Origin: Chromatiales bacterium
GTDB lineage: Bacteria > Pseudomonadota > Gammaproteobacteria > Chromatiales > Chromatiaceae
Assembly (NCBI GenBank): GCA_028280505.1
Contig: JANQLO010000069.1
Location: 1 to 64,000 of the forward strand
Direction of reading: 5' to 3'
Length of the DNA: 64,000 nucleotides
Positions 21,777 to 29,857 of this stretch are shown here, one piece after another (position 1 is the stretch's first letter; the number at the start of each line of letters is the position of its first letter). The notes beneath the pieces were generated by a model. That model made no database searches, had not been told where the DNA came from, and saw only the letters and a list, made by a program, of their open reading frames with translations. The translations under genes were made by a program, and so were the position numbers.

Positions 21777-21968
21777 GTGGCCTGGATAACCAGAAAAAAA
21801 ATCTGCCATGCCTGTGGCGGTACCGAAATGACGCGTTATCACCGCAGTCTATGGATGAAGCTGTTTCGGGGTAGCCAGCTTTTGCGCTGCCGTCAGTGCC
21901 GTTCGACTATTCTACTGCTCCGCAGCAACGACCGGACCGAGCGTCTGACCGCGACCGAGGACGTTTGA
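21777..21968 (+). CDS. Small zinc-ribbon-like protein (hypothetical)
   Basis: A 63-residue open frame begins with GTG at 21777 after AAAGGA. It contains two CxxC pairs, CHAC (residues 10-13) and CRQC (38-41), spaced as in a zinc ribbon, in a basic context. A -10-like TAGAAT lies about 40 bases upstream. The last 57 bases overlap the 3' end of the convergent anti-sigma gene. I do not recognise a named family, and coding status rests on the Cys pattern and RBS. Confidence 0.5.
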   Translation: MAWITRKKICHACGGTEMTRYHRSLWMKLFRGSQLLRCRQCRSTILLLRSNDRTERLTATEDV

Positions 21969-22694
21969 CCTTCCTGCCAGGCCGCTCGCCGGCCAGCGCA
22001 CTGCGGCGGCGAGGCGCTCGCCTTTGCCGGAAACCGCTTCGCCCTGTTCTCCGACCACCGCGATGCTGCCCCAATCGGTCGGTACGATTTCACCCTGGAA
22101 ACGGCCGGCATTGACCGCAATCGGTGATGTAGCCAGCTCTCCGGGCATAAAAAACACGGTAATCGGGCCTTTTTCGCCGGGCAATACCAGATGAACGCCG
22201 TTTTTCTTGCGCATTAGGCATTCGGCGGCGAAGTTGACCGGGCCGATGTTCGCAGCCAATTCGGCGCCGAAACGTTTGAACACCCATTTCAGTCGGCCGT
22301 CGGAGACCGGCTGCGCCTCGCGTAAATGGTGTGCTTCATCCTCGATATGATTGATCACTGACTGCGCTAACGCGATATCGCTGCGCTCGAGCGAGGTATT
22401 CCATATCGATAGCATACTGACGCCGACCATCATGAGCACCGAGGCAGCGGCTGCATACCACCAACGCCGGCGAACGCTGGCGTTTTGCTCGAAGCGTGCG
22501 GCGAGCTGCACTCTTTCGGCCAGGCCTTCGGGCGGGACGGCCTCGCGCAGCACGGCACGCATGCGCATCTCCTGTGCGCGCAGATCGCGTGCGAAGCCGG
22601 CACAATCGTGACAATGTGCCTCGTGATCGGTTAGATCTTCGTCCTTGCAAAAAGGGTCGATCAAGAGTCGGCGACGGAATTCGAGGCAGTCCAT
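21912..22694 (-). CDS. Membrane-spanning zinc anti-sigma factor with periplasmic sensor domain
   Basis: The 260-residue protein starts at ATG 22694, overlapping the sigma stop by one base. Residues 24-31 form the zinc anti-sigma motif HxxxCxxC (H24, C28, C31) typical of ZAS domains that hold ECF sigma factors in the cytoplasm. A membrane helix spans about 79-98. The periplasmic part has a region around 110-175 with a single Cys159 (AAECLMRKKNGVHLVL). A similar arrangement is seen in the anti-sigma protein of the bufferin operon at 30338-30931. The similarity suggests a shared sensor fold (DUF3379-like); the ligand is unknown. Confidence 0.8.
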   Translation of the reverse strand: MDCLEFRRRLLIDPFCKDEDLTDHEAHCHDCAGFARDLRAQEMRMRAVLREAVPPEGLAERVQLAARFEQNASVRRRWWYAAAASVLMMVGVSMLSIWNTSLERSDIALAQSVINHIEDEAHHLREAQPVSDGRLKWVFKRFGAELAANIGPVNFAAECLMRKKNGVHLVLPGEKGPITVFFMPGELATSPIAVNAGRFQGEIVPTDWGSIAVVGEQGEAVSGKGERLAAAVRWPASGLAGRSNVLGRGQTLGPVVAAEQ

Positions 22695-23197
22695 CACATG
22701 GCCTCCCGCCGCGTGGCGTCGGTCAGCTGCTCGCGTAAGGTCTTGCGGGCGCGAAACAAGCGGGTCAGTACGGTGTTGGTGTTCAGATCGAGCAAATCGC
22801 CGATTTCTTTGCAACTGAAGCCGCCGATTACCTGCAGCAACAAGGGGTCGCGGTAACTACCGTCCAGGCATGCCAGTGCCCGACGCATGGCGAAGGCCTC
22901 TGCGCTGGTATCGTAGCCCCGTACGGGGACGTCCGGTAAATCCTGTGGGTCTCTTACGTCAGGACGCTGACGCTCGTAAAGGCGGGCGTGCTCGTTACGC
23001 AGGATGGTGTACAGCCAGGCGCGAGCGGCCTTGGTGTCGCGCAGATCGTCACGCGAGCGCCAACCACGTAAGAAGGCCTCTTGAACCAGGTCTTCGGCGG
23101 TATCGGGGTTGTGACACAGACCGAGCGCATAGCGGTACAACTCCGGCGTCAGCGCGTCGACCAGGGTCTCGAAATCGGTACGTAGTTTTGCCATCAA
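22694..23197 (-). CDS. ECF sigma factor
   Basis: The 167-residue protein has sigma-70 region 2 (LYRYALGLCHNPDTAEDLVQEAFLRGWR) and region 4 (LLLQVIGGFSCKEIGDLLDLNTNTVLTRLFRARKTLRE), with no regions 1 or 3, as in extracytoplasmic-function sigma factors. It is followed directly by its probable ZAS anti-sigma factor. It shares the YDTSAEAF linker and QVI-G-S-KEI pattern with the ECF factor at 50466-50999, so the two look paralogous. Confidence 0.93.
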   Translation of the reverse strand: MMAKLRTDFETLVDALTPELYRYALGLCHNPDTAEDLVQEAFLRGWRSRDDLRDTKAARAWLYTILRNEHARLYERQRPDVRDPQDLPDVPVRGYDTSAEAFAMRRALACLDGSYRDPLLLQVIGGFSCKEIGDLLDLNTNTVLTRLFRARKTLREQLTDATRREAM

Positions 23198-23344: not shown

Positions 23345-23830
23345 TCAGGGCTTCAGGTAGGTGAAACCCTCTGCCTGAAGGTGCGCCAGTTCGGCAACGC
23401 CGCTCGGGACGATGTCGGATTTGTCGACGTTGTAGAGGTGATCTTCATAATTCACCCCACGACCCTTGAGGGTGTTGGCGCATATGTTAAATGCGACACC
23501 CTGATCCTTCAGGCCGTCGATCGTGGCCTTCATCTGCTCGGTGGCATTGGCATGCTTGAATTTCTTCACCGAATCCAGCGCATCGGGATACATCACCAGC
23601 GACACCCCGTTACCGTGCATGACGACACGCAAATCCAGATTTTCCTTACCCACCGCATTGATGTGGTTTTGGATATTGCGCATCGCCCCGGCCTGCTGCC
23701 TGGGGTCGTCGTAGTTGATGTGATAGACCACCTTCTGTTTATCATAGGCCGAGCCGGCCGATACGGCGCCGGACAAGGTCATCAGGCCAACCAAGCCTGC
23801 GATCATCAATTTACCTATCATCTTTTTCAT
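23345..23830 (-). CDS. Exported DsrE-family sulfur-handling protein
   Basis: The 161-residue protein has a clear signal peptide (MKKMIGKLMIAGLVGL...SAGSA) and one DsrE-type alpha/beta domain: VVYHINYDD, LDLRVVMHGNGVSLVM, GVAFNICANTL with Cys117, and a C-terminal helix PSGVAELAHLQAEGFTYL. DsrE-like proteins carry sulfane sulfur as persulfide on a conserved Cys, and Cys117 is the candidate. It follows, 49 bases downstream, an anti-sigma protein whose own C-terminus is a related domain. A Shine-Dalgarno GAGGAGAT precedes the ATG. Confidence 0.82.
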   Translation of the reverse strand: MKKMIGKLMIAGLVGLMTLSGAVSAGSAYDKQKVVYHINYDDPRQQAGAMRNIQNHINAVGKENLDLRVVMHGNGVSLVMYPDALDSVKKFKHANATEQMKATIDGLKDQGVAFNICANTLKGRGVNYEDHLYNVDKSDIVPSGVAELAHLQAEGFTYLKP

Positions 23831-23879
23831 CTCCTCGGGTTGCTGCTCTGCGGCAGTTCGGTTTTCCAGGGAAGGCCCG

Positions 23880-24614
23880 CTACACGCGGATATAAGACCA
23901 GCCCTCCCTTTGTCGTTTCACGACATGGTCGACGCCGGAGTCGATCACCTCGGCGTCAGGAACCAGTTTCACTTCGACGCCGTGTTCGATCTTGATACGG
24001 TCGATGCTGTTCTGACAGGCAACGAAAGTGAGATTGTTGAAGCGCCCGGCCAACTCGCCGATGCGAGCCTTGTGCTGCGATAGACGCATACGCAAAAGGT
24101 CCAGGCCATCGCTGTGACTGACCACTTCGACTCTCAGCGGGCGATGGTCGGCCTCGTAGGCCGCGAGCAGGTCTTCGACCTCGTCCAACAATTCGCCGGC
24201 AACCGTCTGGTCGGGATTCGTCAGGTGAAACACGATACGGGTCTCCCCATCGCTGGCGACCGCCGGTGCCTGCCCCCGTCCGTCGGGGTCGAGCACGACG
24301 AAACGCGCCGGATCGGCCGTCGGAACCGTGGTATTGGCATGCAGCAGCCAGCCGCCGAGCATCCCGACGGCAAGCAGCAAAACGCTTGCCGCGATCGCCC
24401 GCCACGAGGCCTTGACGACGTTTCCGGCACGCGTGTCGGGTCGTGGCGGTTCGGCATAGGCCAGGCGCACCTGCGCCTTCATCTGATTGAGTTCACAGGC
24501 CCGTCGTGCCAACTCCGGATCCTGTCGCATGGCTTCGAGTAATTCGGCCTGTTGGTCGGCGCTCAACTCCCCGTCGACATAGGCGTTTACTTCAAGCTCG
24601 TCATTCGGGTTCAT
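23880..24614 (-). CDS. Anti-sigma factor fused to a periplasmic DsrE-like domain
   Basis: The 244-residue protein starts four bases inside the sigma gene (ATGA). Residues 1-50 have the anti-sigma N-terminal pattern VNAYVDGELSADQQAELLEAM, without a zinc HxxxCxxC motif. One membrane helix spans about 72-92. Residues 125-244 resemble the DsrE protein next door: LRVEVVSHSDGLDLL, NNLTFVACQNSIDRI with Cys200, then VPDAEVIDSG and a terminal GWSYIRV. I infer that the periplasmic domain senses sulfur state through Cys200 or binds the neighbouring DsrE protein, and releases the ECF sigma. I do not recall this fusion as a characterised family. Confidence 0.8.
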   Translation of the reverse strand: MNPNDELEVNAYVDGELSADQQAELLEAMRQDPELARRACELNQMKAQVRLAYAEPPRPDTRAGNVVKASWRAIAASVLLLAVGMLGGWLLHANTTVPTADPARFVVLDPDGRGQAPAVASDGETRIVFHLTNPDQTVAGELLDEVEDLLAAYEADHRPLRVEVVSHSDGLDLLRMRLSQHKARIGELAGRFNNLTFVACQNSIDRIKIEHGVEVKLVPDAEVIDSGVDHVVKRQREGWSYIRV

Positions 24615-25174
24615 TTCGGTCTCCTCAGCGGTATGACTTCGGCATGTCCTATGCCTTGCTGTTCAAGGATCTCGCGCATGCGGCGGCGCGAGCGGGAAAG
24701 ACGGCTCATGACGGTGCCCACCGGCACTCCGAGGATCGCCGCAGTATCGGCATAGCTGAACTCGGCCACGTCGACCAAGGTCAGTACCTGGCGCTGGTCC
24801 TCCTTCAGCGCGGCGATCGCCTCGCGTGTACGGTTGATCAGCTGCGTTCGGTCGGCATTGTTTTCCGGGTCTTCGTTCGATGCCAGCATTTCGCTGTCCA
24901 AGCCGGTCTCGGGCTGGATGCGGCGATATTGGTCCCGATACAGGTTGGCCAGTATCTGGGTCAGCCAGACTTGAAGGCGGGATTCGTCGCGCAACGTGTC
25001 TACTTTCGCCAGGGCCCGGGTCACGGCTTCCTGGGCGAGGTCTTCGGCCATGCTGCTGTCGTGGCACCAGGACCAGGCGATGCGGTATAGGCGCTCTCGC
25101 TCGGCGCAGATTTCGCTTCGCAACTTGCGGCGACGGCCGAAATGGCCAAAAAGCGATGTTTTGTTATCTGTCAT
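24611..25174 (-). CDS. ECF sigma factor
   Basis: The 187-residue protein has region 2 (LYRIAWSWCHDSSMAEDLAQEAVTRAL) and region 4.2 (VLTLVDVAEFSYADTAAILGVPVGTVMSRLSRSRRRMRE). It is the first gene of a three-gene unit: sigma, DsrE-type anti-sigma, DsrE protein. The four-base overlap with the anti-sigma gene indicates co-translation. The promoter should lie at 25175-25251; I could not fix it. Confidence 0.93.
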   Translation of the reverse strand: MTDNKTSLFGHFGRRRKLRSEICAERERLYRIAWSWCHDSSMAEDLAQEAVTRALAKVDTLRDESRLQVWLTQILANLYRDQYRRIQPETGLDSEMLASNEDPENNADRTQLINRTREAIAALKEDQRQVLTLVDVAEFSYADTAAILGVPVGTVMSRLSRSRRRMREILEQQGIGHAEVIPLRRPK

Positions 25175-25251
25175 GTGGGGAAAGACGAAGTATGGCGCGG
25201 TGTATTCCCGCGGTAAGGGTGATTCTAAGCCATGTCGGTCCCGGGGTTGTC

Positions 25252-27938: not shown

Positions 27939-28226
27939 ATGAATCAATCAGACCGTACCAAAGTCGCTATTGCAGGTATGCTCGCGGCCGGAGCCCTGTT
28001 GGCGACCAGCACCGCGTCTGCGGTACCCGATGCCCCAAAGGCGTGGGAGAAGTGCGCCGGTATTTCGAAAACCGGCAAGAATGACTGTGGTGCGCTCGAC
28101 GGCAAGCACGGTTGCGCCAATCAGGCCACGAAGGACAACGACGATCAGGAGTGGATCTATGTCCCCGCGGGTACTTGCGAAAAGATCACCGGTGGCGTGA
28201 TAGCCAAAGTGAAGCCGGCGAAGTAG
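27939..28226 (+). CDS. bufA1: Bufferin-type peptide precursor (DUF2282, BufA1-like)
   Basis: The 95-residue precursor has a Sec-type signal peptide (to about residue 28, STASA) and a DUF2282 core with four cysteines: Cys39 in WEKCAG, Cys50 in KNDCGAL, Cys59 in KHGCAN and Cys80 in AGTCEK. In characterised bufferins, core Cys residues are converted by the MNIO enzyme to thiooxazole-type groups that bind copper and protect the periplasm. The gene is directly followed by the DUF692 and DUF2063 partner genes. The assignment is by family and operon. Confidence 0.9.
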
Positions 28227-28232
28227 GCGCGC

Positions 28233-29084
28233 ATGGCTACCGCGTTCCCCACCGGGGAGCGCGGGTCTGTGTCCGGTGTCGGCATAGGCCTGCGTGATCC
28301 GCATTTCGATCAATTGATGACCGAAGACCATGGTGTGCCGTGGCTTGAATTGTTGGCCGATAATTTTCTCGCACGTGGTGGTTTGACGCCACGCCAACTC
28401 GACCGGGTCGCGCAGCGCTACCCCGTGACTTTGCATTGCGTCAGCATGAATCTCGGCGGTGTCGATCCGCTGGATAAGGCTTATTTGAGGGAGATTCGAC
28501 GTATCGCCGCCCAGGCGAACGCGGCCTGGATTTCCGACCATGCTTGTTTTACCGCACACGGTGGACAGCAGTACCACGATCTTCTGCCGCTGCCCTACAG
28601 CGATGAGTCGATACGGCATATCGCCGGACGTATCGCCGACGTGCAGGACTATCTGGGTCAGCGGATCGCCATCGAGAACGTTTCGGCCTATTTGCGGGTT
28701 GACGCGCCGTTGAACGAAGCAGCCTTTCTCGCGGCGGTTTGCGATGAAGCCGATTGCACCTTGCTGTTGGACGTAAACAACCTTTACGTCAATCAAGTGA
28801 ACCTGGGTCTCGATGCGCGACAAGCGCTCGCCGAGTTGCCCTTGGACCGTGTGCGCGAGATCCATCTGGCGGGCTATGAAGATAAAGGCGATTACTTAAT
28901 CGACGCACACAATAGTCGGGTGTCCGATCCGGTTTGGGTTTTGTTCGCCGAACTGATACAGGCGATGCTGCACGCGCCCGTCTTGATCGAATGGGACAAG
29001 GATATCCCGCCTTTGGCTACGCTGCTGGCCGAAGCCGAGCGGGCCAGGGCAATCATCCGCCAGGTCAAGGAAGCCGCCGCATGA
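28233..29084 (+). CDS. bufB: MNIO-family (DUF692) peptide-modifying oxygenase, BufB-like
   Basis: The 283-residue TIM-barrel protein belongs to the multinuclear non-heme iron-dependent oxidative enzymes. Features include GVGIGLRDPHFDQL, WLELLADNFL, HCVSMNLGGVDPLD, WISDHACFT, IAIENVSAYL, CTLLLDVNNLYVN, REIHLAGYED and LIEWDKDIP, which hold the conserved His, Asp and Glu metal ligands. It should modify the BufA cysteines in the cytoplasm before export. It lies six bases after bufA and overlaps bufC by four. Confidence 0.93.
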   Translation: MATAFPTGERGSVSGVGIGLRDPHFDQLMTEDHGVPWLELLADNFLARGGLTPRQLDRVAQRYPVTLHCVSMNLGGVDPLDKAYLREIRRIAAQANAAWISDHACFTAHGGQQYHDLLPLPYSDESIRHIAGRIADVQDYLGQRIAIENVSAYLRVDAPLNEAAFLAAVCDEADCTLLLDVNNLYVNQVNLGLDARQALAELPLDRVREIHLAGYEDKGDYLIDAHNSRVSDPVWVLFAELIQAMLHAPVLIEWDKDIPPLATLLAEAERARAIIRQVKEAAA

Positions 29085-29857
29085 ACCACACATTGGCCCA
29101 ATGGCAGCGCAACTTGACCCGCATGATTGACGCGGATGAATCGCCGCAGCATTTTCTCGGGGGGGCCATGACGGTGCCGGGGCCTACCGTGGAGCAGGGC
29201 GGTCTGGTGTATCGCAGCAGCAGCCGCGGCGCGCGTGCCATGGCCTTGCAGGATATCTATCCGGTATGCCTGCGTTTGCTCGGTGAGCGCTCATTCGAAG
29301 GGCTGGCGCGGGAGTTCGTCCGTCGGCAACCGTCGGTGTCGGGTGATCTGAATCGCTACGGTGAGGGTTTTGCGGACTTTGTGCGTTGGATCGTCGATGA
29401 ACAGCCGGCCTTCGCCGGACTGCCCTGGCTAGGTGATCTGGTTGGCTTGGAATGGTTGTGCCACAGCCTGTATTACCGCGACGATTCGCCACCGTTCGAT
29501 CCTGCGCCGTTGGCTTCGGCGGGGGCCGAGCATCTCCGTCCGTGTCCGGCTGCGCATGTCGCCTGGATGCACACCCGGTGGTCGGTGCATCAAATCTGGC
29601 GGGCACATGCCGACGATGTCGACCCCGGGGAGTTGCGTATCGAGTCGGGCGATTATTGGTTGTTTTGCGAACGTCGCAACTACCGATCGGTCGTCAGCGT
29701 GATCGATCCGGCGTTGTGGCAATTGCTGGATGCCTGCGGGCAGGGCGACACATTGGCTCAAATGGCCGTGCAAGAAGGGCTTTGCGTCGATCGCCTGGGT
29801 GAGTTGGTCGAACTCGGATGGATCGGTACGTTGGAGTGCGGGTCAGATGCTGTTTGA
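29081..29857 (+). CDS. bufC: DUF2063 MNIO partner protein, BufC-like
   Basis: The 258-residue protein has the N-terminal DUF2063 DNA-binding-like domain (QHFLGGAM, GLVYRSSSRGARAMALQDIYPVCLRLLGE...FEGLAREFVRRQPSVSGDLNRYGEGFADFV) and a C-terminal winged part. In bufferin and related pathways this partner recognises the leader peptide and brings the precursor to the MNIO enzyme. The start at 29081 overlaps bufB by four bases, and its end overlaps the sigma gene by 11. Confidence 0.92.
   Translation: MNHTLAQWQRNLTRMIDADESPQHFLGGAMTVPGPTVEQGGLVYRSSSRGARAMALQDIYPVCLRLLGERSFEGLAREFVRRQPSVSGDLNRYGEGFADFVRWIVDEQPAFAGLPWLGDLVGLEWLCHSLYYRDDSPPFDPAPLASAGAEHLRPCPAAHVAWMHTRWSVHQIWRAHADDVDPGELRIESGDYWLFCERRNYRSVVSVIDPALWQLLDACGQGDTLAQMAVQEGLCVDRLGELVELGWIGTLECGSDAV

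Follow-up and report, generated by a model that had tools for sequence, protein, structure and literature searches.

A candidate membrane-spanning anti-sigma factor with a DsrE-type sensor domain, linked to sulfur oxidation in Gammaproteobacteria

The window analysed here is a stretch of 64,000 nucleotides from a Chromatiales bacterium (assembly GCA_028280505.1, contig JANQLO010000069.1, positions 1 to 64,000), which carries on its minus strand an ECF sigma factor gene, an anti-sigma factor gene that overlaps it by 4 bases and a DsrE-family gene (Table 1). A sequence-only reading of the same DNA had described an ECF sigma gene overlapping that of a one-helix anti-sigma factor with a DsrE gene behind, and all three open reading frames lie where it placed them. 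The sigma protein matches Sigma70_r2 (PF04542, 43.3 bits) and Sigma70_r4_2 (PF08281, 60.7 bits) over the Pfam cut-offs and sigma70-ECF TIGR02937 at 85.9 bits (cut-off 42.9), and has Sigma70 regions 2 and 4 only, as is typical of ECF factors. Phage protein families gave no match.

Table 1. Features of the sigma/anti-sigma/DsrE locus, in window coordinates.
Feature	Position	Strand	Basis
ECF sigma factor, 187 aa	24611..25174	minus	Pfam and TIGR02937 over cut-off
Anti-sigma factor, 244 aa	23880..24614	minus	ORF, AlphaFold2, sigma adjacency
DsrE-family partner, 161 aa	23345..23830	minus	PF02635, profile to 1l1s
DsrE-type sensor domain of anti-sigma, residues 124-244	23883..24245	minus	AlphaFold2, Foldseek, profile
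Codon Cys200 of anti-sigma	24015..24017	minus	37/37 in alignment, 71/71 homologues
Codon Cys117 of partner DsrE	23480..23482	minus	27/30 aligned partner copies
Codon Cys40 of anti-sigma	24495..24497		kept in at least 90% of 31 homologues aligned
Promoter-like site GGAATACACCGCGCCATACTTCGTCT	25183..25208	minus	8 bases 5' of sigma start codon

The anti-sigma protein has one hydrophobic stretch (residues 73-91), and its C-terminal part would lie in the periplasm. Its full-length AlphaFold2 model, built with 31 full-length homologues (pLDDT 80.9, pTM 0.51), comprises three confident N-terminal helices (3-13, 19-31 and 33-52), a membrane helix (71-94), a disordered linker (around 94-123) and a confident domain (124-244). 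Predicted N-terminal helices, a single predicted membrane helix and an operon shared with a sigma gene would fit class I transmembrane anti-sigma factors of the RseA/COG5662 type, from which the protein differs in that its C-terminal part is a DsrE domain. No Pfam family is matched over cut-off along the protein (zf-HC2 reaches 16.2 bits against a cut-off of 22.2), and the NCBIfam model 'antisigma' gives 20.7 bits, under its cut-off of 100. Anti-sigma factors are likewise absent from the 20 PDB sequence matches of the N-terminal helices and from the best 50 of their 1149 fold matches. In other genomes, many longer frames match the anti-sigma profile with their N-terminal parts, over profile positions of around 6-105 only. 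The hallmark of zinc-binding anti-sigma factors (ZAS) is an HxxxCxxC motif, which the N-terminal part lacks, Cys40 being its only cysteine. The single Cys200 of the sequence-only reading is thus true of the periplasmic part and not of the whole protein, the cytoplasmic part having Cys40. That residue is kept in at least 90% of the 31 aligned homologues.

The C-terminal domain is close to certain to have a DsrE fold, on the combined weight of structure prediction and sequence profiles. Residues 114-244 modelled alone by AlphaFold2 with 37 sequences gave pLDDT 92.0 and pTM 0.84, and a Foldseek search of the PDB with this model ranked MTH1491 (1l1s) first (E=1.2e-9, TM 0.90 on target), ahead of ST0148 (2pd2), a designed relative and the DsrE sulfurtransferase 3pnx_A (E=4.8e-5), with a weaker match to DsrEFH (2hy5_B, E=3.3e-3). 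The sequence profile of the domain reaches 1l1s at E=4e-19, in an alignment that pairs Cys200 with a cysteine of MTH1491. Since the folding alignment contained no stand-alone DsrE protein, the DsrE fold did not enter the model through that alignment. Pfam DsrE (PF02635) scores the domain at 17.5 bits, under the cut-off of 22.7. The earlier description of this C-terminus as DsrE-like, for which structure prediction and Foldseek had been proposed as the check and another fold as the refutation, is borne out. MTH1491 and ST0148 share fold, sequence family and aligned cysteine with both the sensor domain and the partner; they differ in that their PDB entries are free-standing proteins of 108-113 residues, with neither a membrane helix nor an anti-sigma part. 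DsrE sulfurtransferases carry sulfur on a cysteine, and DsrEFH-type proteins are cytoplasmic carriers in sulfur oxidation that are not known as sensors. The sensor domain has the conserved cysteine of such sulfurtransferases at the family position in 71 of 71 homologues.

The two DsrE parts of the locus are related to each other, as had been supposed from their sequence order. BLASTP aligns sensor domain and partner at E=2e-6 with 20% identity over the domain, and their alignment score of 79 is reached by none of 1000 shuffles (mean 28), so a chance resemblance is rejected. In a quick tree that included 60 stand-alone proteins the sensor domains form one group (37/37, support 0.74), and the main partner group (24/30, support 1.0) lies apart from them. 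Derivation of the sensor domain from the partner by recent duplication is therefore not favoured.

The partner itself matches PF02635 over the gathering cut-off (43.5 bits against the same 22.7), and a profile of 30 partners reaches MTH1491 at E=1e-21. Its N-terminus looks by eye like a signal peptide, and Cys117 is its only cysteine. In a chosen set of 30 aligned copies from named loci this cysteine is kept in 27 and is absent from three (L090, L098 and L103); a wider count by position finds it missing from 7 of 62 copies. Both loci that lie directly before a sox operon, L098 and L103, have partners without the cysteine. The anti-sigma cysteine is kept in 37 of 37 sequences of the matching alignment. 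Because the partner cysteine is missing in some copies and that of the anti-sigma factor is kept, the partner may not be required as a donor and could instead act as a structural subunit or be a target of the switch. That the anti-sigma cysteine stays constant where the partner cysteine is lost, above all in the sox-joined modules, suggests that the former is indispensable and that the donor may vary between loci, for example Sox proteins at L098 and L103. The proposal that sensing is direct or runs through the partner is accordingly weakened in its second half.

Matches to the anti-sigma protein occur in 24 of 56 related genomes (matches to the DsrE part only included), and its profile matches 147 of 369 genomes of the class, which is Gammaproteobacteria by the names of the relatives. 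Among the matches listed, 66 of these genomes read as full length; this was the outcome of the profile search for anti-sigma proteins with such a C-terminal domain that the sequence-only reading had called for. A set of 398 genomes of the phylum gave three full-length matches among those listed, all from the same class. The 38 of 80 retained loci that contain the anti-sigma gene (L068-L105) carry names including Chromatiaceae, Sedimenticola, Thiodiazotropha, Thiotrichales and Acidiferrobacteraceae, together with unclassified Gammaproteobacteria and one Betaproteobacteria. All 71 distinct anti-sigma proteins have exactly one cysteine in their last 60 residues, at the place of Cys200. The gene overlaps or adjoins that of an ECF sigma factor, the order of class I anti-sigma genes, for 65 of the 71, and a DsrE partner lies within the locus sequence examined for 58. 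Loss of Cys200 or unlinked homologues had been named as outcomes that would count against the module; the residue is invariant and the genes are linked at most loci. Among the six anti-sigma genes with no adjacent sigma gene, three end at the sequence edge (L024, L061 and L063), one has the sigma gene about 120 bases off (L049), and for two (L081 and L018) no cognate sigma was found within the locus sequence. At L081 the anti-sigma and partner genes are present and only a second-type sigma gene lies near. Four genomes of the genus have two tandem partners (L012, L015, L016 and L017), and L061 and L063 are two such anti-sigma genes about 1.6 kb apart on the same contig.

A shared sequence upstream of the sigma genes, GGAATAA-N14/15-CGTCT, is inferred to be the promoter of this sigma factor. 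The motif was read by eye from 33 sigma upstream sequences, near-duplicates such as L099/L100 included, all 33 of which have GGAATA; a -10-like CGTCT with at least 4 of 5 letters follows in 31 after a spacer of 14 or 15, the exceptions being L098, with CGTCT only at spacer 17, and L103, with 2 of 5 letters. A GAAC-type ECF motif was not matched in any of the 33. The window's genome (4.65 Mb) contains four sites of the strict form, against two for a reversed control. One lies before the window's sigma gene and one, on contig C3, before the gene of a second secreted DsrE protein, which scores 123 bits with the anti-sigma profile and 18.0 bits, below cut-off, with Pfam DsrE. The third stands about 200 bases 5' of soxB (C33), and the fourth precedes a pair of TlpA/ResA-like and thioredoxin-like genes (C38). 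Nine genomes of the genus hold 32 strict sites and 10 control sites. Among 30 genus sites inspected, 20 precede sigma (7), second secreted DsrE (5), SoxB (4), TlpA-like (2) or SAXB-like genes (2, at 55 and 67 bits against a cut-off of 95), and the others lie before tadA (4) or before none of these (6). The tadA sites stand about 14-20 bases before this tRNA adenosine deaminase gene in L182, L189, L200 and L203, its identity being set at 206.5 bits in the one case checked and by eye in the other three.

DsrE genes placed divergently upstream of sigma have a motif of their own, at 16 of 16 loci examined (14 distinct; L057, whose DsrE gene lies downstream on the other strand, is excluded) with scores of 13.4-27.5, 12 of the 14 distinct loci scoring at least 17.6. 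The DsrE gene of the window has no motif upstream (best score 1.1) and, lying inside the operon, presumably relies on the operon promoter. The genome G008, which has no full-length anti-sigma match and no such sigma gene beside its DsrE gene, has one strict site with none of the sigma, DsrE or sox-type genes behind it. The promoter-like motif and its predicted targets are new here. A porin-like protein is encoded beside the divergent DsrE gene at L094, L095, L096 and L101 (PF07396, 41.7 bits at L101) and is perhaps a co-target; at L330 a strict site is followed by a gene for a protein resembling it.

Genomes with the anti-sigma factor are nearly all SoxB-positive. Among the matches listed, SoxB is present in 65 of 66 genomes with the full-length protein, against 85 of 303 others of the 369 in the class (Fisher p=1.9e-28, computed on 64/65 against 86/304 with genomes treated as independent). 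SoxB-positive genomes were taken here by E-value (150; the tally over cut-off is 148), and two genomes with incomplete anti-sigma sequences, G124 (in pieces, on two contigs) and G297 (a partial match), were counted as lacking it. The one exception, G089, has no SoxB among the matches listed. The motif is tied to soxB itself by a scan with a matrix built from 30 sigma promoters, which covered 59 of 65 eligible anti-sigma genomes and 69 of 85 others, the rest being lost to contig ends or unlisted coordinates and the window's genome falling outside the 59. In 18 of the 59 and in 0 of the 69, the 450 bases upstream of soxB contain a site of at least 16 bits (p=1.7e-7, again with genomes as independent units); the reverse strand has none in either group. 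At 14 bits the counts are 20 and 2. By family labels the 18 genomes fall in 13 families.

The remaining 41 of the 59 lack a 16-bit site in the 450 bases before soxB. Among 18 of these a stricter motif was found 16 times, in 10 genomes, against 0 for the control; the other 8 have no such site anywhere, the sigma upstream region included. Two of the 16 sites lie before sigma genes, three before divergent DsrE partners (part of the 16-locus count above), one before SoxX (86.8 bits, cut-off 61), two before SoxB-like phosphoesterases (124-128 bits, cut-off 550), one before a cytochrome c protein, one before a porin-resembling protein (17.3 bits, below cut-off) and six before other genes or none. 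The module also adjoins sox genes directly: at L098 it is followed by genes for cytochrome c, SoxB, SAXB, SoxX, SoxY (121.4 bits against an NCBIfam cut-off of 125; over the Pfam cut-off), SoxZ and SoxA, and at L103 family clustering gives an identical order as far as SoxZ. Taken as sequence evidence, these associations make the module very probably a regulator of sulfur oxidation. The sulfur-responsive transcription switch first proposed thereby gains a sulfur-linked regulon, through the shared promoter-like motif and the co-occurrence with SoxB.

We propose that the module is a membrane-spanning switch for sulfur oxidation built on a DsrE-domain anti-sigma factor, a reading to which we assign a probability of roughly 0.62. 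Several of the results above weigh against it: the 41 anti-sigma genomes with no 16-bit site near soxB, the 8 with no stricter site, the poor -10 elements and the partners lacking the cysteine at L098 and L103, the two anti-sigma genes with no cognate sigma in the locus sequence, G089 as an anti-sigma genome with no SoxB among the matches listed, the genus sites before tadA or before none of the named genes, and the Pfam score of the sensor domain below cut-off. The cytoplasmic helices of the anti-sigma factor would keep the ECF sigma factor inactive. In the presence of thiosulfate, polysulfide or Sox intermediates, the periplasmic DsrE domain would load a sulfane-sulfur or thiosulfonate group on Cys200, either directly or from the partner DsrE protein assembling with the sensor domain. 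The loaded state may alter this assembly or expose the linker such that the sigma factor is released by a conformational change or by proteolysis. Freed sigma factor would then act at GGAATAA-N14/15-CGTCT promoters to transcribe its own operon, the genes of DsrE partners, and sox or related periplasmic genes. That Cys200 senses sulfane sulfur is a well-motivated hypothesis, given the known DsrE chemistry, the invariant cysteine and the predicted targets. The fuller version, in which secreted DsrE proteins serve as donors or buffers and many families within a single class switch on Sox oxidation through persulfide or thiosulfonate loading of one periplasmic DsrE cysteine, we hold to be evenly poised.

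A different use of the same architecture would be docking, the DsrE domain binding the partner, which shields the anti-sigma factor from proteolysis, with the signal acting on the partner or the envelope. RseB shields RseA from proteolysis in this way, and DsrE proteins form multimers such as DsrEFH, which entered the present analysis only as a PDB match. The frequent presence of the partner, its homology with the sensor domain and the loss of its cysteine in some copies would all suit docking. Cys200, however, would then not need to be invariant, and 13 of the 71 loci show no partner in the locus sequence examined; we regard docking as rather unlikely. The switch may instead sense general thiol oxidation or a metal at Cys200, the sulfur genes being part of a wider periplasmic stress regulon. 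A single cysteine can react with oxidants or metals, and the TlpA/ResA-like and thioredoxin-like genes behind one predicted site are of a kind with such a regulon. Against this, the domain has one cysteine only, the N-terminal part has no HxxxCxxC, the recurring predicted targets are DsrE and Sox genes and SoxB accompanies the anti-sigma factor in all but one genome of the matches listed, which leaves such sensing improbable. That sulfite or another small sulfur oxyanion acts in the DsrE pocket with no covalent loading is very improbable: sulfite-generating compounds, thiosulfate and taurine among them, activate RpoE1/RpoE4 of Sinorhizobium meliloti (PMC3511301, in extract), but simple binding needs no invariant cysteine, and DsrE3A and TusA form cysteine thiosulfonates according to the portion of PMC4175335 consulted.

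The proposed DsrE-domain switch joins known principles in an arrangement for which we found no precedent in the literature searched. Extracts of the Sinorhizobium meliloti study (PMC3511301) describe RpoE1/RpoE4 (ECF26) as a system activated by sulfite-generating compounds, with sulfite as the proposed signal and sorT under its control. Like the present module as proposed, RpoE4/SMc04050 with RpoE1 combines an ECF sigma factor, a downstream anti-sigma gene and control of sulfur oxidation, and the system also controls its own operon and is activated on thiosulfate or taurine; unlike the window's protein, its anti-sigma factor is described in those extracts as COG5662-like, with DsrE unnamed (PMC3511301). 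ECF sigma2 of Arcobacter butzleri activates sox genes, and differs in that it also activates nap genes, DsrE being unmentioned in the extracts (PMC3445524). In some bacteria the genes of sulfite-oxidising enzymes are preceded by an ECF sigma/anti-sigma pair (PMC6527743, in extract). In the parts of these three sources that were available the term DsrE is absent, the sole text match in PMC3511301 being DsRed; it is absent from the texts of PMC7406223 and PMC12194929 as well, and the available text of PMC7451513 holds nothing relevant. The search covered open-licence literature, and within it no DsrE-bearing anti-sigma factor was found. ECF/anti-sigma switching is thus already known, and the DsrE sensor within such a pair is the element not met with in the literature searched.

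If the proposal is true, the module contains a transmembrane transcription sensor made out of a sulfur-carrier domain. To our knowledge, how sulfur oxidisers sense periplasmic thiosulfate or sulfane sulfur and induce sox genes is poorly known, and the persulfide sensors we know of are mostly cytoplasmic regulators. Our analysis offers a concrete candidate sensor domain, a single residue as a target for mutation, a promoter-like motif and a small set of predicted target genes.

Two neighbouring gene groups in the window deserve mention. Directly downstream of the module on the same strand (21912-23197) lie genes for a second ECF sigma factor (PRK12517-like, 180.7 bits, cut-off 197) and a DUF3379 protein (175.5 bits), likely the anti-sigma factor of that second sigma. 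A DUF3379 relative occurs in 8 of the 38 loci L068-L105. Control of the second sigma gene by the GGAATAA motif was considered and rejected, its best upstream score being 3.9. Further along, at 27939-29857, three genes appear by eye to encode a small secreted protein, a DUF692-type protein and a DUF2063-type protein, an order that we take to be bufferin-like.
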